A stretch of 51,804 bases of DNA from Actinomycetes bacterium (GTDB taxonomy: Bacteria; Actinomycetota; Acidimicrobiia; Acidimicrobiales; Acidimicrobiaceae): assembly GCA_021822605.1 (NCBI GenBank), contig JAKAQL010000012.1, forward strand, positions 1 to 51,804, read 5' to 3'. The notes beneath the pieces were generated by a model, which saw only the letters and a list, made by a program, of their open reading frames with translations, was not told the origin of the DNA and did not search any database. This document shows positions 38,445 to 51,604 of this stretch, one piece after another; within the stretch, counting starts at the first letter, position 1; each line of letters starts with the position of its first letter. Both the position numbers and the translations under genes were made by a program.

Positions 38445-39812
38445 TCAGGTAGCCGGAAGTGCGGTACAACCCTCCACCATGGGCAACGTTGCCACTGTCA
38501 TCGCGTGTGATACCTGTAGTTCATAGAGCGATGGCGTCGTGGCGACCAGACCGATCGGCTCAAGCGAAGGGCGCAAGATATTGGTGGCAGTCGACCTCTG
38601 GGCATGTCCACCAACAAGACTTCCACCGATAATCGAGGCGAGACTCGCACGACTAAAGACCACCTCAGGGGCGTTGGTGCTCGGATTCGCCACACAACTG
38701 ACCCACCAATGTGAGGAGTGGAAGTATATTGGCTTCAACTCGTAGAAGGGAGACGTAGGGCTCGTTGATTGCACTGTACCAATTCCATACAAAGCATTTC
38801 GACCAGCTACCTTTACGGCAACAGCTCGCGTTCCAACGGCGCTCGCAATCGAGGTAAGATTGACGACCAATGGAGCTTGCGGTGGAACCGTCACTCGTTC
38901 CACTGTGCGCATTCGACCCATATCGGCAGCATTGGCAGTTCCATCAAAGCCCGCCATCGAGATCGTCACGGGATCCGGTACCGTTGAGGTGTTCACGAGA
39001 TCCAGCGACAGCGCCTTGGTGCCCACCAACGGAATATAGGGGAGGTACAGCCGACCAGATGGAGTGGCATCAGCGAGGGTCTCCTGTGTGTTCGGGGCTG
39101 CGACACTTGAGGCGACCACGATACTTCCAGAACGGGCAGCGATAGCCGCAGCGATATTGGCGGTGTTAGGCGCAAACTGTCCTGCATTGATCGTCAAAAC
39201 TGCACCGGGCCGGACGATAAGGCCTTCAACCGACGGAACTGACTCCTCGCCCTCCACGGAGTAGTAGTTCAAATCGACTACCGCCTGCACCTTGAACGGG
39301 TTGTAGACGGCGATAGTCGAGTGGCTACCTGTCGTCGTCGACAGGCCCTCAACGGTCCAGCTGCTGCTCGGGGAGGAGCTGCAAGGGTAGATCTGTGGCG
39401 TCGCAGTTGGTGTTGTCTGCGTTTCCATAAAGGCAACGACGCCTCCCGAAGATACGATCACCCTTCCATGACCGGGTGGCACAAGCAGGCGCAGCGACGA
39501 ATGTGCCAACAATAGACCGTGCTCTACCCGTGTGCCCACTTCGGAGCTGATAAGCAATCGCCGGTCGAATCGAGTTGGATTCTCCAAGATAATCCCGTCG
39601 AAACGAAGATCTCCGAGAGACGGAGGGACCACGCAGTACCAGCTCACCGATGTCGCATCGGGTACCGCCGTCGGTACCGCCAAACTACCAATCCCCAAAG
39701 GCACATTCGCCACCGCGAACTGAGCCCGTCGAACAGCGAACGTGTGCGTCAATGCCACCGCACCCACGAGCACCACTACAAGTCCCAGCAGGATCACCTT
39801 CGCACTCTTCAT
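38445..39812 (-). CDS. DUF5719 family secreted or membrane-anchored protein
   Basis: The 455-aa protein has an N-terminal hydrophobic segment (VILLGLVVVLVGAVALTHTF) that acts as signal or anchor, and an extracytoplasmic beta-rich domain. Its pattern (VYNPFKVQAVVDLNYYSVEG, then GLIVRPGAVLTINAG) and its position after a large GT2 gene fit DUF5719 of actinobacteria. The role is unknown; co-occurrence with the glycosyltransferase suggests a part in cell-surface glycan assembly. Its ATG overlaps the GT2 stop in ATGA. Confidence 0.75.
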   Translation of the reverse strand: MKSAKVILLGLVVVLVGAVALTHTFAVRRAQFAVANVPLGIGSLAVPTAVPDATSVSWYCVVPPSLGDLRFDGIILENPTRFDRRLLISSEVGTRVEHGLLLAHSSLRLLVPPGHGRVIVSSGGVVAFMETQTTPTATPQIYPCSSSPSSSWTVEGLSTTTGSHSTIAVYNPFKVQAVVDLNYYSVEGEESVPSVEGLIVRPGAVLTINAGQFAPNTANIAAAIAARSGSIVVASSVAAPNTQETLADATPSGRLYLPYIPLVGTKALSLDLVNTSTVPDPVTISMAGFDGTANAADMGRMRTVERVTVPPQAPLVVNLTSIASAVGTRAVAVKVAGRNALYGIGTVQSTSPTSPFYELKPIYFHSSHWWVSCVANPSTNAPEVVFSRASLASIIGGSLVGGHAQRSTATNILRPSLEPIGLVATTPSLYELQVSHAMTVATLPMVEGCTALPAT

Positions 39813-42709
39813 CGAGACTGGACCCCAACTGGCTCCGTTGGTGCAGTAGCAGGCCGCGAACCTGATCTCTTCGATGAACCGAAGGTTCGCCCTCGCAGCC
39901 AGGACCGACGTCCAAAGAGTCCTAGAACCAAAACAAGGATCGTCCCAAGCTGGATTACGGTGCCCAAGATCAACCAGGGATCGCTTACGGACACACCGGT
40001 GGACAGTGCGGCCATGCGCGCAGTCAGACGATAGACGGAGATGCCACCTTCAGAGAAGAGTTGGACCATATCGAGCTGCCGACCAAAGGCAGTCGTAAAA
40101 GCGTCTGCTGCTAGCGTTCTCGGCGCACCGACAACTACCACCTCGCCAACTCCGTCGGCCGCGAGATCATCACCAAGACGCACCGTTTGTCCAGCAAGAG
40201 CCAGACTTACTAGATGATCCAACGCGGCCTGACCATGAGTGATTGCCGGAGCCCCGGCGGTCAAGACGGTCGGGGCCACACCCTCAGTCAGGCCGACATA
40301 GACACCATTGGTGAGCTTCTCGCCCGTTACGATGCGAGGCCCAGTCCCCAGCTCCACCCAGAGCACCGAACCGGGGTCGCGAACCAACCCCTCGACCAAA
40401 GGAAGGGTGTTGCGTGCCGTTGTCACCGGGCCTGGCTGGCCTACGAGCGCACCGAGGACAGATCCTAGCAAGGTCACCGCCAGCGCGATGGCAACGATGC
40501 CGGCCATCACGTGATGGAGTCCAACGCCAAAGGAACGGAGCCTTCCTAAGATCAGACGAATTGCCCCAGGCACGGCAATTGACGCAATCAGCGCCGCCAG
40601 AATCGTCGGGTAGATGGGTGCGATGGGCGAGCCACCAAGCACTCCTCGACCGGCCAAAACTCCAAGCATAAGGCAGCCCACCGTTGCGATCGTCGCCGCC
40701 ATGAGTGCTCCGCCTCTTCCTTCCCCAAATCCAAGCACCGCAACAATGAGTGTCAAAAGCATTGCACCAAGCAGCCAGGAGGATAGACCTTCGACAACAG
40801 AGGCACCAAAAAGTGCGCTGATCATCGAACTTGCGGGGTTGACAAAGCCAGTAAATACATAATCAGCACCTGGGTGGACGATGATAAGGGCACCGATCCA
40901 GGGAAGGTTCGCAAGCACCCCAAAGGCAACGGCGTAGCCGACCACAACGACCAACCTCCGCACTCTCTCGGCGCCGCCGGTCAGTACATAGGCCACCATT
41001 TGCACCACGACAGCCAGGAGCCACACCAAGGCGAGTTGCGGGCTTAGGGCGATAGCTAGGGCAAAGAGTGCGGCTACGCGCAGGTTGGATCTGCGCATCA
41101 CCCTACGCGATCTGCGCTGAGCTGCCAGTGCGTCGATCGTAGCCCCCAGCAACAGCGGTGCGATCGCATAAGCAAACAGGACATAGATCGAACCCCGGAC
41201 CAGAGCGATTGCCACCAAGGGTGACAAGGCGTAGAGCACACCAGCGGTTCGCGCATACCCATCAGGAAGGCGCCGTCGGGCAACCCGGTATGCCCCCAGA
41301 GGCCCAACAACCAGGGAAGCAACCACTAACAACCATACGCCCAGTGCCGTATGTCCAAGGAGAATCAGGCCCAACAGTCCCACAACAAGGTCTGAGGCGG
41401 GCAGAACAGCAACTCCAAGTAGGTGGCTCGCTCCATGGCCCGAAAAGTAGGCTCCGAGAAGTTGCAGTGGAGAGGAATAGAGAGTGAAGGAGCCCACCAA
41501 CGGTGTGGGCGAGAACAGGGTGGAGCGCGCCAAGACAATACTCAGCAGTATCGCTATCCACAATGCCCATCTTCCCACTCCGCTGCGTCCTTGGCTCGAG
41601 ACCTCCACATCTGGAGCACTCGGTTCCGCAGACACCTCAACAGTGGAGCTCGTGCTGGAACTAGTCCTTGCCTGCATGAAGAAACCTCGCAGCGTCAGCC
41701 ACGAACCTGAGAAGTTCAACAGCCGAGCATCGAGGCCACTCGCCGCCATAAGCTGGCGCTGATGACGCAGTTCGTCCCGCTCTCGCAGAACACCGAAGGA
41801 CCGAAGACATCCCCAAGCCACTCGCGGCCGGGCGGTCAGTGCGAGAAAGAACGCCTCTACTAGTCGTTCAAGGTAAAACAAAGAAGTGGCAAAAGTTCGT
41901 GTTCGCCCTTGTTCGAGTTTTGCGATACAGCGTGCCTGATGGCGTCGCTTGCGTTCAATGCGCTCAGCCTGGGTCAGCGCTACTCGTTCCTCAAAGATAA
42001 CCCCACGTTGGACAGCTCTAAGACGAGGCGATCGGCGTCCCGCAGTGGAGACTGACCGGTGGCGTACTCGAGCATGTGGAGCTGTAGAGATTCGAGCCCC
42101 CGCCATTCGAACACGACAGGAGAGGTCCACCTCCTGATAGACACTGCCAAAGACTTCGTCAAAGCCTTCAAGGGCGTTGAAAAGATCAGCGCGAATGAGC
42201 ATGGCACAACCAGCTGCTACCGCGACCTCATTGATCTCGTCATACTGACCTTGATCCAGATCTCCAACCTCAACACGAGGTGCGGTCCCCATCAAAAAAT
42301 CAAGATCACTGCCGAGCTCAAGAATCTGGCGAGGGGAATCATAGGCGACAATTTTCGGCGTAACCAGCCCCGAATTCGTGGCATACGCAACCTCCATCAT
42401 CGCAGCAAGCGAATTTGGGGCGAGCGCGACATCGTCATGGCAGAGAAGCAGAAACTTCGCCTCTGGCACCAGTTCCGCTGCCGCATTCGCCGCTGCAGCA
42501 AAACCCGGGTTACCAGGTATTTCGCAAACACGCGCCATCGGCAACAAACGACAAGTTAACTCGTCAACTCGACTGGACTGGTCAACGTTGGCTACCACGA
42601 CATCGAGGTCTGGGTAGCCTAGGGAGGAGATACTCGCAAGGCATTCCTCGAAGTAATCACCTGGATCGTGGGCAACAACAACCACTGCCACTTTAGGGGG
42701 TGCTTGCAT
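39809..42709 (-). CDS. Large membrane glycosyltransferase, family 2
   Basis: The 966-aa protein has an N-terminal GT-A catalytic domain of about 270 residues (VAVVVVAHDPGDYFEECLASI at the start, HDDVALAPNSL as the DxD region, EVDLSCRVRMAG further on). About a dozen hydrophobic segments follow from residue 375, with a C-terminal extracytoplasmic part and a last membrane segment. It probably uses a nucleotide sugar at the cytoplasmic face to build a cell-envelope polysaccharide. It starts 13 bases after the rmd-like gene and is translationally coupled to DUF5719. Confidence 0.85.
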   Translation of the reverse strand: MQAPPKVAVVVVAHDPGDYFEECLASISSLGYPDLDVVVANVDQSSRVDELTCRLLPMARVCEIPGNPGFAAAANAAAELVPEAKFLLLCHDDVALAPNSLAAMMEVAYATNSGLVTPKIVAYDSPRQILELGSDLDFLMGTAPRVEVGDLDQGQYDEINEVAVAAGCAMLIRADLFNALEGFDEVFGSVYQEVDLSCRVRMAGARISTAPHARVRHRSVSTAGRRSPRLRAVQRGVIFEERVALTQAERIERKRRHQARCIAKLEQGRTRTFATSLFYLERLVEAFFLALTARPRVAWGCLRSFGVLRERDELRHQRQLMAASGLDARLLNFSGSWLTLRGFFMQARTSSSTSSTVEVSAEPSAPDVEVSSQGRSGVGRWALWIAILLSIVLARSTLFSPTPLVGSFTLYSSPLQLLGAYFSGHGASHLLGVAVLPASDLVVGLLGLILLGHTALGVWLLVVASLVVGPLGAYRVARRRLPDGYARTAGVLYALSPLVAIALVRGSIYVLFAYAIAPLLLGATIDALAAQRRSRRVMRRSNLRVAALFALAIALSPQLALVWLLAVVVQMVAYVLTGGAERVRRLVVVVGYAVAFGVLANLPWIGALIIVHPGADYVFTGFVNPASSMISALFGASVVEGLSSWLLGAMLLTLIVAVLGFGEGRGGALMAATIATVGCLMLGVLAGRGVLGGSPIAPIYPTILAALIASIAVPGAIRLILGRLRSFGVGLHHVMAGIVAIALAVTLLGSVLGALVGQPGPVTTARNTLPLVEGLVRDPGSVLWVELGTGPRIVTGEKLTNGVYVGLTEGVAPTVLTAGAPAITHGQAALDHLVSLALAGQTVRLGDDLAADGVGEVVVVGAPRTLAADAFTTAFGRQLDMVQLFSEGGISVYRLTARMAALSTGVSVSDPWLILGTVIQLGTILVLVLGLFGRRSWLRGRTFGSSKRSGSRPATAPTEPVGVQSR

Positions 42710-42722
42710 CAGAAGCTACACG

Positions 42723-43634
42723 CTAGTCGCCAGGTCGGGGAGAACGACCGCCGCCGATGGCTTCAACGACTCCGGCGATCGTCTGGTGCAGAGAAAACTG
42801 ACGATGGAATCCCGTCACCTCGGTCATTTTCAGCGGGTCTCCCACCACGACCTCGACATCGTTCGGGCGCACGAGTACAGGGTCTACTTCGAGATCCACT
42901 TGGTGGTCAAGAATAACGGACAGCTCTCCCACAATCTCACGGACGCTGACCGACTCGCCCGAACATACGTTATAGGCATCTCCCGGCACCCCATGGACCG
43001 CAAGGAGGCGATAGGCTCTCACCACATCTCGCACATCCATGAAGTCGCGCCGGGCGTCGACATTGCCAACCCGAAGGCTCGACCTCCCCCTCGCTTTTGC
43101 CTCGACCATTCGGGCGCCAAGTGCAGGGACCAGATAGTCGACAGACTGCCCTGGACCGGTATGGTTGAATGGGCGAGCTACCACAGTGGGTAGACCATAA
43201 CCATACCAGGCCTGCATTGATGCGAATTCGGCCGATGCCTTCGAGGCGGCATACGGTGATACTGGGCGCAGCGGCTGAGACTCCTCGATAGGGAGATCGT
43301 CGCCGTTGACTCTTCCGTACACCTCGGAGGATGAGACGTGCAAGAGACGTGGAAGCTGGGGCAGCCGCGCGAGAACTGCGACGAGATTCGCAGTTCCAAC
43401 GACATTGTTGACAAAGTACAGCTGAGGGTTTGACCATGACGCACCCACGTGCGACAATGCAGCTAGATGGTAACAGACATCGATCTCTATCCCGCCCAAC
43501 GCCTCCTCAAGCGCTTCCCTGTCACACAGGTTTAGGCCCTCTCGGAGTTCAATGACCTCATCTCCTTGATCGGAGAGGTAATGACAAAGCCATCCTCCCA
43601 CAAACCCACGACTACCAGTGATCAAAGCCCGCAT
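42723..43634 (-). CDS. NAD(P)-dependent sugar epimerase/reductase, GDP-6-deoxy-4-keto-mannose reductase-like
   Basis: The 303-aa short-chain dehydrogenase of the extended type has the nucleotide loop TGSRGFVGGWL, SSSEVYG and the catalytic YAASK. It is closest in pattern to GDP-6-deoxy-D-lyxo-4-hexulose reductase (Rmd), which makes GDP-D-rhamnose; the alternative is a dehydratase such as Gmd. ATG at 43634 follows the preceding stop by 7 bases with GAGGG upstream. A partner GDP-mannose dehydratase is not in the window. Confidence 0.75.
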   Translation of the reverse strand: MRALITGSRGFVGGWLCHYLSDQGDEVIELREGLNLCDREALEEALGGIEIDVCYHLAALSHVGASWSNPQLYFVNNVVGTANLVAVLARLPQLPRLLHVSSSEVYGRVNGDDLPIEESQPLRPVSPYAASKASAEFASMQAWYGYGLPTVVARPFNHTGPGQSVDYLVPALGARMVEAKARGRSSLRVGNVDARRDFMDVRDVVRAYRLLAVHGVPGDAYNVCSGESVSVREIVGELSVILDHQVDLEVDPVLVRPNDVEVVVGDPLKMTEVTGFHRQFSLHQTIAGVVEAIGGGRSPRPGD

Positions 43635-43641
43635 TGTGCCC

Positions 43642-44739
43642 TCAGGCCTCGAGCAGTTGGCAATAAAGCGCAATCGTTTGGCGAGCAGCGCGCTCCCAAG
43701 TGAAGCTCCGCGCCCAGTTCACCTGCCGTTCAATCTCGTCAGGAGTACGCGAAGTCAGCGCTGCCGCCTCAATACCCTGAGCAATCGCATCGACATCGTC
43801 AGGGTCAGCCAGCCACGCGAAGTCTCCAGCCACCTCGGCCATTGCTGACTTGTTGCTGGTGACGACGTTCAGACCCGAGGCAAGTGCTTCCAAAACTGGT
43901 AGGCCAAAACCTTCGGCGTTGGAGACGTAGATCATGGCACGCGCCCGTCGCAGCGCCCGTCGCAACTCCTTCTCTTCGAGGTACCCTTCGACACTGACGC
44001 ACCCCCGATTCCGCATCGCGTACAAGGCCGCATCAAAATCACTTGTCTTCCAACCCCGTTTCCCAATAATTCGGAGCCGCCAATTAGGATGTTGGTCTGC
44101 CACTTTATCAAAGGCCTCAAGAACCCGAGCAAGATTCTTGCGAGGCTCAATCGTTCCTAACGAGCAAAGCTCCACGGCATCATCCTCATCGCCACCGTGC
44201 TCTGGAACAAGCAACGGATCAACACCATGATAGATTACGTGGATCGGTGGGGTTGATGGGAAATGGTTGCGCAGACGATCCGCTGTCGCTTGGGACGGAA
44301 CGATCAAAGCATCGGAACGCTTCACTGCCAAACGGATCGCTCGTTGAAAGTAGCGCACCTTTGTGGGCTCGTGCCACTCGGGGTTGTCAAAAAAAGTGAG
44401 GTCATGAATCGTGGAGATCACCCGCAATCTATGACGAGCAGCCGGAACTTGATAGTGCAGCCCATGGAAGACGTGGGCACCTCCCTTGATCGCGATAGAA
44501 CCAAGGCTTCGTTCCTGGTAGAGCAGCCGAAGGGGTCGGCTGTTCGGAGCAGCAATCAAATTCTCGTAGTTAGCTCTTGGGGGAAGAGCAAAAAGACGCA
44601 GTGACGCCCGAGTCGTCAACAGCGAGATGGGAGGGCGATCATCAAGCTGATAAATGGCAGCAACCAGTTCTTTTGCATAACGCCCGACCCCAGTGGGGTC
44701 GCTAGGGATCGAAGTCGCATCAATAGCCACAGGGTTCAC
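43642..44739 (-). CDS. Glycosyltransferase family 4 (first downstream copy)
   Basis: The 365-aa GT-B enzyme has the N-terminal loop PTGVGRYAKEL, LGTIEPRKNL at the start of the second domain and the nucleotide-sugar motif NAEGFGLPVLEALASG. It transfers a sugar, probably mannose or a related hexose, to a growing glycan. GTG at 44739 overlaps the preceding stop in GTGA and has GGAGG ten bases upstream; the longer frame from 44757 is less likely. Confidence 0.88.
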   Translation of the reverse strand: MNPVAIDATSIPSDPTGVGRYAKELVAAIYQLDDRPPISLLTTRASLRLFALPPRANYENLIAAPNSRPLRLLYQERSLGSIAIKGGAHVFHGLHYQVPAARHRLRVISTIHDLTFFDNPEWHEPTKVRYFQRAIRLAVKRSDALIVPSQATADRLRNHFPSTPPIHVIYHGVDPLLVPEHGGDEDDAVELCSLGTIEPRKNLARVLEAFDKVADQHPNWRLRIIGKRGWKTSDFDAALYAMRNRGCVSVEGYLEEKELRRALRRARAMIYVSNAEGFGLPVLEALASGLNVVTSNKSAMAEVAGDFAWLADPDDVDAIAQGIEAAALTSRTPDEIERQVNWARSFTWERAARQTIALYCQLLEA

Positions 44740-45815
44740 TCGGTCAGCTCCTCCCATAATCGAACATGTTGCTCGGCGGCCACCACCCAGGATAGCCCAT
44801 CGACCGCAAGCAGGCCATGAGTCACCAGTCGAGAACGTAAAGGGTCATCATTGGCAATCTGATCTATGGCTTGAGCAATCGCATCGACATCACGGGGTTC
44901 AACGCCAAGCCCTCCAAAACGGGCAGCGGGAATGTTCGCCGTCGTGATGACTGGTACCGCTGCTGCTAACGCCTCGATGACTGGTAGCCCAAAACCCTCC
45001 TGCAGTGGCACATACACCAATGCAAGGGCACGGGCGAGCAGTCCTGACACTACCTCGCCCGGCAGGCTCCCAACCATAAAGGCTCCTCGAGGTGGCACGA
45101 TATCCGGACCCCAGCCCTTCGGACCTACGATTACCAACGGTACTGGATCAAATGACGTTGCACGATAGTGTTGATAGGCCTGAAGGATGCGCTGTAAATT
45201 CTTCCGTGGCTCGATCGTACCTAGCACCATCAGATAGCGTCCGACAATGCCAAGATTATCCAACAACTTTGCGGTCGCCACCGTATCGGCAGGCGGAACG
45301 TGATCAACTCCAGGCGGTATGACCACGATCCGTTCCGCTGAGACACCGGCTTCCACAAGCAGCTTGACCGTCTCTGCTGCCAACGTCACCACCCGAGCGT
45401 TACTCGCTACCACCTGAGCGAAGCGGCGTTCATGCCAGGCTCTTGCCCGGGAAGGGAAAGTCTCCCCTTCCGAGCGAAACAGCAGGTCATAGACGGCCAC
45501 CACGCAGGGCATGTTCATCCGCAAAAGAGGACCGCCGAGCGAAAACGCGTGGTAGAAAGACCAGTTACCCTTGGGTGCGCCCGCACCATAATCCCAAAGG
45601 CGTTGTTGTAAGCGATAGTCGAGGCGAGTCTGGACACGAGTTCCAACCCACGAGGATGGACCAACGCGGGTCGTGGTGTGCGAGGTGAAGAGCGTAAGAT
45701 CCCTGTCCATGCCGATTTGATTCAGACCCTGGAGTACACCGGAGATGTAAACCCCAATGCCCCCAGAAACTCTCCTTGTGAGCTGATCCACCAGCAGCAA
45801 CCCTGGCTTTGTCAT
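44736..45815 (-). CDS. Glycosyltransferase family 4 (middle copy)
   Basis: The 359-aa GT-B enzyme has the N-terminal loop RRVSGGIGVYISG, LGTIEPRKNLQRIL and QEGFGLPVIEALAAAVPV. It resembles its two neighbours in the second domain but differs in the acceptor domain, so the three probably add different residues to one glycan. Its ATG overlaps the preceding gene's stop in ATGA, and its own stop overlaps the next start. Confidence 0.9.
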   Translation of the reverse strand: MTKPGLLLVDQLTRRVSGGIGVYISGVLQGLNQIGMDRDLTLFTSHTTTRVGPSSWVGTRVQTRLDYRLQQRLWDYGAGAPKGNWSFYHAFSLGGPLLRMNMPCVVAVYDLLFRSEGETFPSRARAWHERRFAQVVASNARVVTLAAETVKLLVEAGVSAERIVVIPPGVDHVPPADTVATAKLLDNLGIVGRYLMVLGTIEPRKNLQRILQAYQHYRATSFDPVPLVIVGPKGWGPDIVPPRGAFMVGSLPGEVVSGLLARALALVYVPLQEGFGLPVIEALAAAVPVITTANIPAARFGGLGVEPRDVDAIAQAIDQIANDDPLRSRLVTHGLLAVDGLSWVVAAEQHVRLWEELTE

Positions 45816-46912
45816 CGAGCGGCCTTTGCATACAGCGCCGCCATCTGCTCCCCACTGCGATGCCAGGAGAACAGTGCTGCTCGTTTGCGACCTCGCGCAA
45901 TCAACTCACCGCGAAGCTCATCCTTCTCGATCACCGCAGTAAGGGCCGTCACAAGCTCGTCAGCAGAGCGCGGCGCAACCGTAATCGCTGCGTCGCCGAC
46001 GACCTCTACGATGGCACCAGCGGTCGTGGTCACAACAGGGGTCCCCACGCTCATCGCCTCCAACAGGGGCAATCCGAAGCCCTCGTACAGGCTTGGATAG
46101 GCGAAGAGTAGAGCGTTACGGAGCAACCATGAGCGAGTATCCTCGGTGACATAGCCTGGTAACAGGATGCGGTGAGTCAGGGCTGGCGTATGCACGCTAG
46201 CGAGCAACTCATCGAAACCCCAGCCATACTGGCCTGTCAACACGAGGCGGAGGTCGGGATAGCGAGCGGTGAGGTCCGCGAAAGCCTGAACGAGATAGTT
46301 CAAACCTTTGCGCGGCTCAAGCGTTGACATTGCAAGGATGTACGGACGACCGCCTAGCTGATGAGCGATTGGCGGTAATGACGGCCTTGCTTGCAGTGGT
46401 GTGATGCCATGAGCAATAGCCACAACTCGATCCGGTTCGACACCAAAATAATCGATCACCTGGCCCCGTATGAACTCAGAAGGTGTGTGCACAAAGGATC
46501 CCGCCTGGACAGCATGGCGCACCAAGGTCGGGAATGCGAGCACCTCGGGTCGGCAAAGACGCGGATAAAGCAGTGGGGTCAGGTCATGGACCGTCACGAC
46601 CGTCGCCTTGCCCCGCGCTGGCGGAACGACAAAGTTGGTTCCATGGATCACATCAAAACCATGAAAGAGATCTCGCAGGTCCGGTCGGTACCATCGCTGC
46701 CAGGATGCGAGCAGCGGCCGTGCAGGAAGGGGCAGGTTCAGGTAGTCAACCCCAGCAGGCAGCGCCTGCCTCAGCTGACCGTGTCGACGGAGTGAGACCA
46801 TAAAACCTGTGGCATCGACGTGGGAGGCCACCGCCTCCGCCATGCGATAGGCAAACTCTCCAATACCGCTACGTTGTCCTACGATCGCTGTGAGCTCGAT
46901 TGCTACTCGGAC
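45812..46912 (-). CDS. Glycosyltransferase family 4 (first gene of the cluster), probable GTC start
   Basis: The second domain has STLEPRKGLNYL and YEGFGLPLLEAMSVGTPV. The first ATG in frame (46843) would remove the N-terminal strand and the glycine-rich loop of GT4. In frame upstream are VRVAIELTAIVG and QRSGIGEFAYR, exactly the missing part, and then a TAG at 46918-46916. No ATG, GTG or TTG lies between them; a GTC at 46912, six bases after the end of GGAGG (in GGAGGT, 46923-46918), is the best start. Either a rare start codon is used or GTG has mutated to GTC, or the sequence has an error. The protein would have 366 aa. Confidence 0.85.
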   Translation of the reverse strand, partial: VRVAIELTAIVGQRSGIGEFAYRMAEAVASHVDATGFMVSLRRHGQLRQALPAGVDYLNLPLPARPLLASWQRWYRPDLRDLFHGFDVIHGTNFVVPPARGKATVVTVHDLTPLLYPRLCRPEVLAFPTLVRHAVQAGSFVHTPSEFIRGQVIDYFGVEPDRVVAIAHGITPLQARPSLPPIAHQLGGRPYILAMSTLEPRKGLNYLVQAFADLTARYPDLRLVLTGQYGWGFDELLASVHTPALTHRILLPGYVTEDTRSWLLRNALLFAYPSLYEGFGLPLLEAMSVGTPVVTTTAGAIVEVVGDAAITVAPRSADELVTALTAVIEKDELRGELIARGRKRAALFSWHRSGEQMAALYAKAAR

Positions 46913-47071
46913 GACCTACCTCCACGCCTCAACCAACCGGCTCCAGAACACAGCGGAGCACCGTCAGAACCCAACACTATCGAACAACAACGCTAGTGGC
47001 GATTGTCCCAAGCGGTTCCGATCGTCGCTGATCGCTCCAGCGCGATGCCGACTTGTCTCTCGATCGATCGG

Positions 47072-47140: not shown

Positions 47141-48097
47141 GTGATTGCGGTACTCGCTGGTGGGGTTGGAGCAGCCAAATTTCTCCAAGGCCTCGTAAAC
47201 GCCGAACTCCAAGAGGAGGTGGTTGTGATCGTCAATACCGGCGACGACTTGGTACAGTATGGCCTTCACATCTCCCCAGACCTCGACACGATCGTCTACA
47301 CGCTGGCTAACCTCGTCAACCCTGAGACAGGCTGGGGTGTTCGCAATGAGAGCTTTCAGGCAAGATCGTCGCTCCAACGCCTCGGAGATAACCCGTGGTT
47401 CACCCTCGGGGACCGTGATATCGGGCTCCACATGTTTCGGACACAGCGACTCTCCGAAGGGGCTAGCCTCACCCAAGTCACCGCGGAGATCGCGAAGGCA
47501 TTCAACGTTGGTGTCACCGTTCTCCCCATGAGCGATGATGCTGTTCGCACCAAGGTCCTCGCCCAGCTGCCCTCGAATGACGATCGCGGTGATCAGATTG
47601 TTGAACTCGATTTCCAAGAGTACTTTGTTCGCTACCAACACCAACCAAGGGTGCTCCGAGTTCGCTACGACCATATTGAGACGGCAAAGCCGGCCATCGC
47701 CGTCGAACACGCGCTCAGTGCGGCACGTCGTATCATCATTGCCCCTTCGAATCCCATACTCTCGATCGGACCAATCATTGCGCTACGAGGCATCGATGAG
47801 CAACTCCGGCGACGGGCAAAGGAAGGGGACGTCGTTGCAATCTCCCCAATTATTGCCGGCGAAGCGGTCAAAGGGCCACTCGCCGAGATACTTGACTCGC
47901 TCATGACCCAACACGATGCGCGCACTGTCGCACAACTCTACCAAGAGTTTACGAGTGTTTTTATAGTCGACGCGGCCGATGCACACCTCATCGACCCAAT
48001 CAGCACCCTCGGCATCACTTGCTTGGCGACCCAAACCCTTATGACCGATCTCGAGGTCGCTGTCAACCTGGCACGATTCGCGGTGATGGCGCAATGA
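47141..48097 (+). CDS. fbiA: 2-phospho-L-lactate transferase (CofD/FbiA), coenzyme F420 synthesis
   Basis: The 318-aa enzyme joins Fo to a phosphoenolpyruvyl or lactyl phosphate donor to form (dehydro-)F420-0. The N-terminus AVLAGGVGAAKFLQGL and NTGDDLVQYGLHISPDLDT are diagnostic, as is APSNPILSIGPI. GTG at 47141 has AAGGAG ten bases upstream. It overlaps the cofE gene in ATGA. In actinobacteria fbiA and fbiB commonly lie next to mannose nucleotide and glycosyltransferase genes, as here. Confidence 0.95.
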   Translation: MIAVLAGGVGAAKFLQGLVNAELQEEVVVIVNTGDDLVQYGLHISPDLDTIVYTLANLVNPETGWGVRNESFQARSSLQRLGDNPWFTLGDRDIGLHMFRTQRLSEGASLTQVTAEIAKAFNVGVTVLPMSDDAVRTKVLAQLPSNDDRGDQIVELDFQEYFVRYQHQPRVLRVRYDHIETAKPAIAVEHALSAARRIIIAPSNPILSIGPIIALRGIDEQLRRRAKEGDVVAISPIIAGEAVKGPLAEILDSLMTQHDARTVAQLYQEFTSVFIVDAADAHLIDPISTLGITCLATQTLMTDLEVAVNLARFAVMAQ

Positions 48098-50833: not shown

Positions 50834-51604
50834 CTACTTGGTACTGCTCTTAGACTTCGAGGTACTGGTTGACTTCGAGGTACTGGTTGACTTCGAGGTA
50901 CTGGTTGACTTCGAGGTACTGGTTGACTTCGAGGTACTGGTTGACTTCGAGGTAGATACGCTCGACCCGACCGTCGCAAGATTCGCTGCCGTCGGTGGCT
51001 GCGGCGGAGTGGTGCCCTTGGGAACCACACCTAGCGTAATGACCTGATCATTTTCCAGCCGCACCTGCGCGAGACTCTTATAGACCGTGGGTTTCGTGGC
51101 CAGCAGCGATGACCACACGTAGATACCGAATGTAGCCGGCTTGCCACCACAACCCGCCGTCGCACTCACCGTTTTGGCCCCAGGCAACGTGAATCCGTCC
51201 TTCGATATCGCTAAGCCCTTAATTCCTTTGGGGAGCAGGGCCAAGGTAGCATTTGCCCCCTCCTCTGATTTTGACTTTGGTGCAATCGCTAAGACACCGT
51301 TCCCTAGCGACGTTATCCCACTCTTTGTGTCGGTCGTCTTCGCCAGCACCGGCTGATACTTACCACACGCGTCAAATCCGATAGCGGTATGCCACGTCGT
51401 TCCAATCACCGGTTGATCAGCAGCAGTCGCCACTGAGGTTGGATGATCGATCTCGTATTTCGAGTAGCCAATGACGGCAACACCAGCAACGACAATCACC
51501 GTCAGTGCCGAATAAAAACCCAATGGAACCTGCCGTCGGACTTTTGCCCCACGACCTGACGCTTGTGCCCGTGCGACTCTTCGAGCGCTCTCTTTGCTTG
51601 CCAT
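50834..51604 (-). CDS. Membrane-anchored hypothetical protein with Ser/Thr/Lys repeat tail
   Basis: I do not recognise this 256-aa protein with certainty. Residues 1-28 are basic, a membrane segment follows (FYSALTVIVVAGVAVIGY), then an outside domain with GTTWHTAIGFDACGKYQP, GANATLALLP and a Cys-Gly-Gly, which faintly recalls a conserved actinobacterial extracytoplasmic protein. The last 45 residues are STSK repeats coded by an 18-bp tandem repeat, probably a flexible wall-spanning tail. No Shine-Dalgarno is seen; TTGGAC-15-TAACCT (51640-51614, minus strand) may give a near-leaderless mRNA. It lies directly upstream of the nucleotidyltransferase gene. Confidence 0.7.
   Translation of the reverse strand: MASKESARRVARAQASGRGAKVRRQVPLGFYSALTVIVVAGVAVIGYSKYEIDHPTSVATAADQPVIGTTWHTAIGFDACGKYQPVLAKTTDTKSGITSLGNGVLAIAPKSKSEEGANATLALLPKGIKGLAISKDGFTLPGAKTVSATAGCGGKPATFGIYVWSSLLATKPTVYKSLAQVRLENDQVITLGVVPKGTTPPQPPTAANLATVGSSVSTSKSTSTSKSTSTSKSTSTSKSTSTSKSTSTSKSKSSTK
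50853..50954 (+). repeat. 18-bp perfect tandem repeat, 5.7 copies
   Basis: The unit gacttcgaggtactggtt occurs five times without a change (50853-50942) and a sixth time for its first 12 bases. It encodes the Ser/Thr/Lys repeats on the minus strand. The unit is a multiple of three, so changes in copy number would keep the frame and only alter tail length. Confidence 0.95.

Follow-up and report, generated by a model that had tools for sequence, protein, structure and literature searches.

The locus studied here raises the question of where translation of a glycosyltransferase gene begins when the conserved N-terminus of its product lies upstream of the first ATG. The gene (gene 1, 45812..46912, minus strand, 366 codons plus stop) is located in a window of 51,804 nucleotides, the whole stretch of DNA that was analysed. 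Inspection of the window sequence bore out exactly what the initial annotation had reported: the conserved N-terminal region precedes the first in-frame ATG (46841..46843, minus strand, codon 24 counted from GTC 46912), the frame is shut by a TAG stop (46916..46918, minus strand), and no ATG, GTG or TTG is present between this stop and the N-terminal motif. The TAG occurs in all seven genomes of the genus. Reading along the minus strand, GGAGGT (46923-46918) is followed by the TAG (46918-46916), whose first base is the T of GGAGGT, by a GTC at 46915-46913, a GTC at 46912-46910, and CGA GTA GCA ATC GAG (R V A I E). The GGAGGT was assigned as the Shine-Dalgarno sequence on the basis of its sequence and of spacing controls, consisting of 93 genes with GGAGG at most 20 nt upstream of an ATG. 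Between the end of its GGAGG and GTC 46912 the distance is 6 nt, a common spacing that was found in 11 of the 93 control genes, so that the earlier claim of a well-placed site for this codon held, while the single GTC described at the time proved to be two in tandem. In this genome gene 1 almost certainly begins with GTC, whichever of the two candidate codons is considered, and GTC 46912 is the most likely start.

The identity of the gene product was evaluated by domain and structure searches. The protein matched PF13439 with 43.3 bits (cut-off 28.5) and PF00534 with 108.8 bits (cut-off 26.4), as expected for a GT4 glycosyltransferase with GT-B fold, and the Pfam Glyco_transf_4 match began at residue 16, corresponding to profile position 3. 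The sequence EGFGLPLLEAM was found in the product and contains EGFGLP...EA, which we take to be the C-terminal motif type of GT4 glycosyltransferases; Y276, E277, G278, F279, G280 and P282 were invariant in an alignment of 17 sequences picked from those fetched. The best Foldseek matches were GT4 enzymes of GT-B fold sharing both PF13439 and PF00534 (MshA, methylmannose polysaccharide mannosyltransferase, GlgM, PimA and BshA), with 19-23% identity to the gene 1 product in the ten best rows.

Gene 1 is followed on the minus strand by a GT4-type glycosyltransferase (gene 2, 44736..45815), a GT4 glycosyltransferase (gene 3, 43642..44757, which in the window shares 22 nt with gene 2), a member of the NAD-dependent epimerase / GDP-mannose 4,6-dehydratase family (gene 4, 42723..43634, for which an internal ATG was chosen as start) and a GT2 glycosyltransferase whose C-terminal part is long (gene 5, 39809..42709). 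Since the neighbouring cofD (47141..48097, plus strand) is divergent, gene 1 is the first gene of the glycan operon, in agreement with the initial annotation. The stop of gene 1 and the ATG of gene 2 share bases (ATGA 45815-45812), and an NTGA junction occurred in all six complete copies (ATGA in five, TTGA in one), its frame being seen to be that of gene 2 in the window, G004 and G005. From this overlapping layout, gene 1 may be translationally coupled to the downstream glycosyltransferases. Elsewhere in the window, a predicted protein encoded at 50834-51604 (minus strand) carries a C-terminal Ser-Thr-Lys repeat (STSKSTSK...).

The conservation of the start region was then evaluated. A protein search of 41 genomes returned gene 1 in six further genomes of the genus, with 65-82% identity to the window copy; the G006 copy was divided between two contigs. 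All seven genomes read TGGAGGTAG(G/A)TC GTC CGA GT(A/T) GCA AT(C/T), and the 20-base initiation block TGGAGGTAGRTCGTCCGAGT (R = A or G; 46905..46924, minus strand) showed in each of them exactly one perfect match, located at gene 1. The leader upstream of the block could be aligned only among closer species, except for a TARCGT element lying some 78 nt upstream of the GTC, and the initiation block stands out because the surrounding leader DNA has diverged. GTC at column 1 was identical in the six complete copies and in the seventh, partial copy, while only one of 25 other invariant Val columns used the same codon throughout. Codons 2 and 4 were also invariant, so that the first four codons held three of the nine same-codon columns found among 188 invariant columns; given these invariant codons, the block may be fixed partly for an RNA reason.

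Searches for the block at other loci gave no sign of a regulon in the genus: with up to three mismatches, three other matches were returned (in G000 and G002, each with three mismatches) against one for the reversed control, and a looser pattern starting with AGGAGG, to which the block does not conform, gave no matches in the seven genomes. Among 42 family genomes the block search returned one further match, with two mismatches, in G014; a search of the public genome_contigs collection returned three distant loci and that of viral_contigs none. The TARCGT element (46990..46995, minus strand), common to all seven otherwise diverged leaders, is a possible -10 element of the operon promoter. Around the start, a scan for the sigma-70 consensus detected no promoter, a terminator scan detected no terminator, and no Rfam match was found.

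The initial annotation had also proposed comparing the first codons of orthologues, and this comparison, which gave GTC throughout the genus, was extended outside it. From 34 genomes outside the genus 23 loci were fetched, and the column of GTC 46912 was occupied by ATG, GTG or TTG in 12 of them; a further 17 family genomes yielded 14 with the locus, 13 of which reached the N-terminus, with a canonical codon at this column in 8 of the 13. A canonical codon was found at the aligned column or within 60 codons upstream in 35 of 36 loci outside the genus. The exception was the orthologue L036 (G013:C54, genus g8), which reads TAG GAG GAA CCG ATC GAT CGC ATA AAG ATA and carries no ATG, GTG or TTG; AGGAGG lies 5 nt upstream of its ATC, which is possibly its start codon. 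A canonical codon was present in three other g8 genomes (L031, L033 and L161).

Alternative locations of the start were weighed against GTC 46912. Initiation could occur at the preceding codon, RTC 46915 (46913..46915, minus strand; GTC in four and ATC in three of the seven species), giving a product beginning with MVRVAIEL. This reading, which we consider rather unlikely, finds support in three orthologues of genus g4 that start one codon upstream of the aligned column (TGA GTG GT(T/A) AGA GT(C/T)) and in the infC gene of the genus, which seems to use ATC. However, RTC 46915 lies 3 nt from the GGAGG, a spacing found in none of the 93 controls and none of a set of 12 controls, though 11 of the 93 showed spacings of 1-2 nt, which may reflect wrongly picked ATGs, and its first base varies, whereas GTC 46912 is invariant. 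In the window, moreover, initiation at this codon would be a GTC start all the same.

It is improbable that translation begins instead at the out-of-frame NTG overlapping the Shine-Dalgarno site (GTG in the window, 46923..46925, minus strand) and reaches the frame of the glycosyltransferase by a +1 frameshift. An NTG occurs at this position in all seven genomes (GTG in four, ATG, TTG and CTG in one each) and its T is invariant despite lying outside GGAGGT, but the presence of CTG in one genome speaks against a start there, and the frame that it opens meets a TGA after nine codons in four genomes and runs on in three, which leaves no common shift site. By inspection we detected neither a slippery codon nor a well-placed Shine-Dalgarno site upstream of this NTG. 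The annotated GTG of Streptomyces sigR likewise lay inside the ribosome-binding site and was disproved, according to the report on that gene (PMC5472188).

The ATG at codon 24 is present in all seven genomes of the genus, and a start there, with the preceding part left untranslated, was the outcome under which the GTC reading of the initial annotation would have failed. The region before it, however, behaves as coding sequence. Over the 22 codons 2-23, the seven genomes varied at 4, 2 and 19 sites in codon positions 1, 2 and 3, respectively, against 14, 14 and 13 over the 14 codons -18 to -5, and the pairwise amino acid identity among six genomes was 89% before codon 24 versus 75% in the following 100 codons. 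Residues G12, G16 and G18 were invariant and A4 and T8 nearly invariant in the 17-sequence alignment. The predicted fold (mean pLDDT 91.8) assigned strand 1 to residues 2-6 and helix 1 to residues 16-28, placing codon 24 inside helix 1; according to this model, a protein begun at codon 24 would miss the first strand of the N-terminal domain together with half of helix 1. Given that codons 2-23 evolve as coding sequence, hold invariant residues and make up strand 1 together with half of helix 1, translation is very unlikely to start at this ATG, which by inspection also lacks a well-spaced Shine-Dalgarno site. Finally, the initial annotation had raised an error of sequencing and a GTG turned GTC in a weakened gene, and nothing beyond the rarity of GTC favours either of them. 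The error is refuted by the identical GTC in all seven genomes, from different species; recent decay has a negligible probability because the block is common to all seven within a diverged leader and gene 1 is, as the comparison indicates, under purifying selection; what may be real in the earlier suggestion of a GTG turned GTC is a weak start kept as a trait.

As the preferred reading, initiation at GTC 46912, calls for an initiator able to read this codon, the tRNA complement was searched. A total of 41 tRNA genes was found in the genome, all of them typed (30 + 11), in a set that is incomplete over the amino acids, indicating that some genes are absent from the assembly or from the search. 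Two Met-CAT tRNA genes were present, and one of them (L067) was initiator-like by inspection, with three G-C pairs and an unpaired 1-72 end. No sign of a special initiator tRNA for GTC was detected among the 41 genes of this 95.3% complete genome, the single Val-GAC tRNA showing no initiator features. IF3 gave one match per genome in the seven genomes of the genus. The infC frame carries no ATG, GTG or TTG upstream of the conserved N-terminus and reads GGAAGGAGTAGCTCT ATC in 7/7 genomes; at all seven loci (L102-L108, in G005, G000, G001, G004, G003, G006 and G002 respectively) the ATC lies 7 nt downstream of GGAAGGAG. On this evidence ATC appears to be the start of infC in this genus, one that standard-rule annotation would misplace. 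Because infC reads as an ATC start in all seven genomes, starts discriminated against by IF3 are probably in use in the genus.

All 64 codons have reportedly been measured as start codons in E. coli by Hecht et al. A natural GTC start has been described for Streptomyces sigR, the first documented to its authors' knowledge (Feeney et al. 2017, PMC5472188). In that paper, codon-to-stop changes located the start at GTC, and the protein level rose with canonical codons and in IF3 fidelity mutants but fell when extra IF3 was supplied; the sigR start has AGGAGGTG and an ATGA overlap. In common with natural GTC starts of the sigR kind, gene 1 has no usable in-frame ATG, GTG or TTG upstream of its conserved coding start, possesses a strong, well-spaced Shine-Dalgarno site and keeps GTC among related species, within the genus (7/7) and not outside it; for sigR, the same paper gives retention within the genus in 32 of 34 Streptomyces species. 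The two genes also share a canonical-looking GTG inside the Shine-Dalgarno site and a second gene overlapping by ATGA. Unlike sigR, gene 1 encodes a GT4 enzyme rather than a sigma factor, belongs to another genus and has a frame closed by TAG, its start being predicted from sequence.

Streptomyces infC is reported with an ATC start in the same paper (PMC5472188), and infC genes with ATT or ATC starts provide a further precedent of a rare start that is kept and is IF3-sensitive in E. coli and Streptomyces, gene 1 likewise having a rare, kept start. However, the ATC of infC is one base off ATG and feeds back on IF3, whereas the GTC of gene 1 is two bases off and its product is an enzyme. GTC can also be a very poor start: PMC11398486 describes a GTG to GTC change of a reporter start that abolished fluorescence. 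PMC5960689 uses the term 'GTC start codon' loosely ('more common ATG or GTC'). A full-text literature search, which resolved only part of the matching texts, confirmed no second natural GTC-start gene. As far as can be judged from sequence, gene 1 would represent a genus-wide GTC start that lies beyond both Streptomyces and sigma-factor control. To have such a start shared by a second genus, from a different lineage and in an operon for enzymes, would mark GTC starts as a reusable operon throttle. A gene finder that accepts only ATG, GTG and TTG would probably put the start of gene 1 23 codons late; further cases may thus have escaped notice, and closed-frame comparison over a genus can reveal hidden rare starts without experiments.

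We infer initiation at the GTC itself, and the mechanism that we regard as likely is that gene 1 starts at GTC 46912 with the ordinary initiator tRNA and a strong Shine-Dalgarno site, the weak codon being kept, repressible by IF3 and capping operon output. Translation would begin at GTC 46912 to give a product starting MRVAIEL..., with the N-terminus (M)RVAIELTAIVGQR. The ordinary initiator tRNA (CAU) would read GTC despite the mismatch, the fMet-tRNA pairing poorly with GUC, and the strong, well-spaced GGAGGT would anchor the 30S subunit and offset part of this poor pairing. As IF3 rejects imperfect codon-anticodon pairs, initiation at GTC would be inefficient and repressible, and its rate low. 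The retention of GTC in all seven species of the genus examined suggests that the start of gene 1 is deliberately weak and holds the operon output down. The weak GTC would then be a kept feature, limiting the output of gene 1 to a low level and, via the NTGA overlap, that of the downstream glycosyltransferases as well. The likely benefit would be that a costly glycan pathway receives its first enzyme, and perhaps those coupled to it, in small and constant amounts. Taken by themselves, IF3 control and coupling, which are transferred to gene 1 by analogy with sigR, are, in our analysis, about as probable as not.

A second lock on the same start was also considered, in which the UC of the GTC and the next C would pair with the GGA of the Shine-Dalgarno site in a hairpin and form, together with the IF3-limited GTC, a two-lock translational switch. 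The hairpin UGGA-G-G-UAGRU-C-G-UCCG showed a folding energy of -4.7 kcal/mol alone, and its pair probabilities varied with the folded length and were near zero in some species. Compared with 253 control genes, which include orthologues of gene 1, six of the seven copies ranked within the bottom quarter for accessibility of GGAGG and the remaining one at the 76th percentile, and the block is nearly invariant, so that no covariation signal is obtainable for the hairpin. We consider the two-lock switch doubtful; if it were true, any exchange of GTC for a canonical start would at the same time open the Shine-Dalgarno site, and surface glycan output would track IF3 abundance or ribosome state.

Finally, stretches of six genomes were scanned for other rare starts in the genus. 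A first version of the scan was swamped by upstream noncoding DNA still similar among close species; the second comprised 196 families, 99 of them with only two members. A first filter flagged 14 of the 196, including the GT4 family of gene 1 and a CobB/CbiA-like family, most of the others being merely without a shared start column as judged from the table. A second filter retained 42 of the 196 families, from which GT4 was absent because G001 has TTG at codon 7; the G001 and G005 copies of gene 1 also carry GTG at codons 10-11. No other GTC start was noticed among the 196 families, with the DNA read for four of them, in this rough scan of part of each genome. In the 42-family list only the CobB/CbiA-like family, a putative assignment from its P-loop sequence, displayed a long coding-like stretch before any NTG, with 54 third-position changes versus 14 at first and second positions. 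This gene (G002:C1 at about 9,500, plus strand, L091; G003:C1 at about 379,100, minus strand, L115; G004:C14 at about 14,800, plus strand, L117) has no ATG, GTG or TTG before its conserved N-terminus and reads GTA CTG AGC in all three genomes examined, which suggests that its translation starts at CTG.
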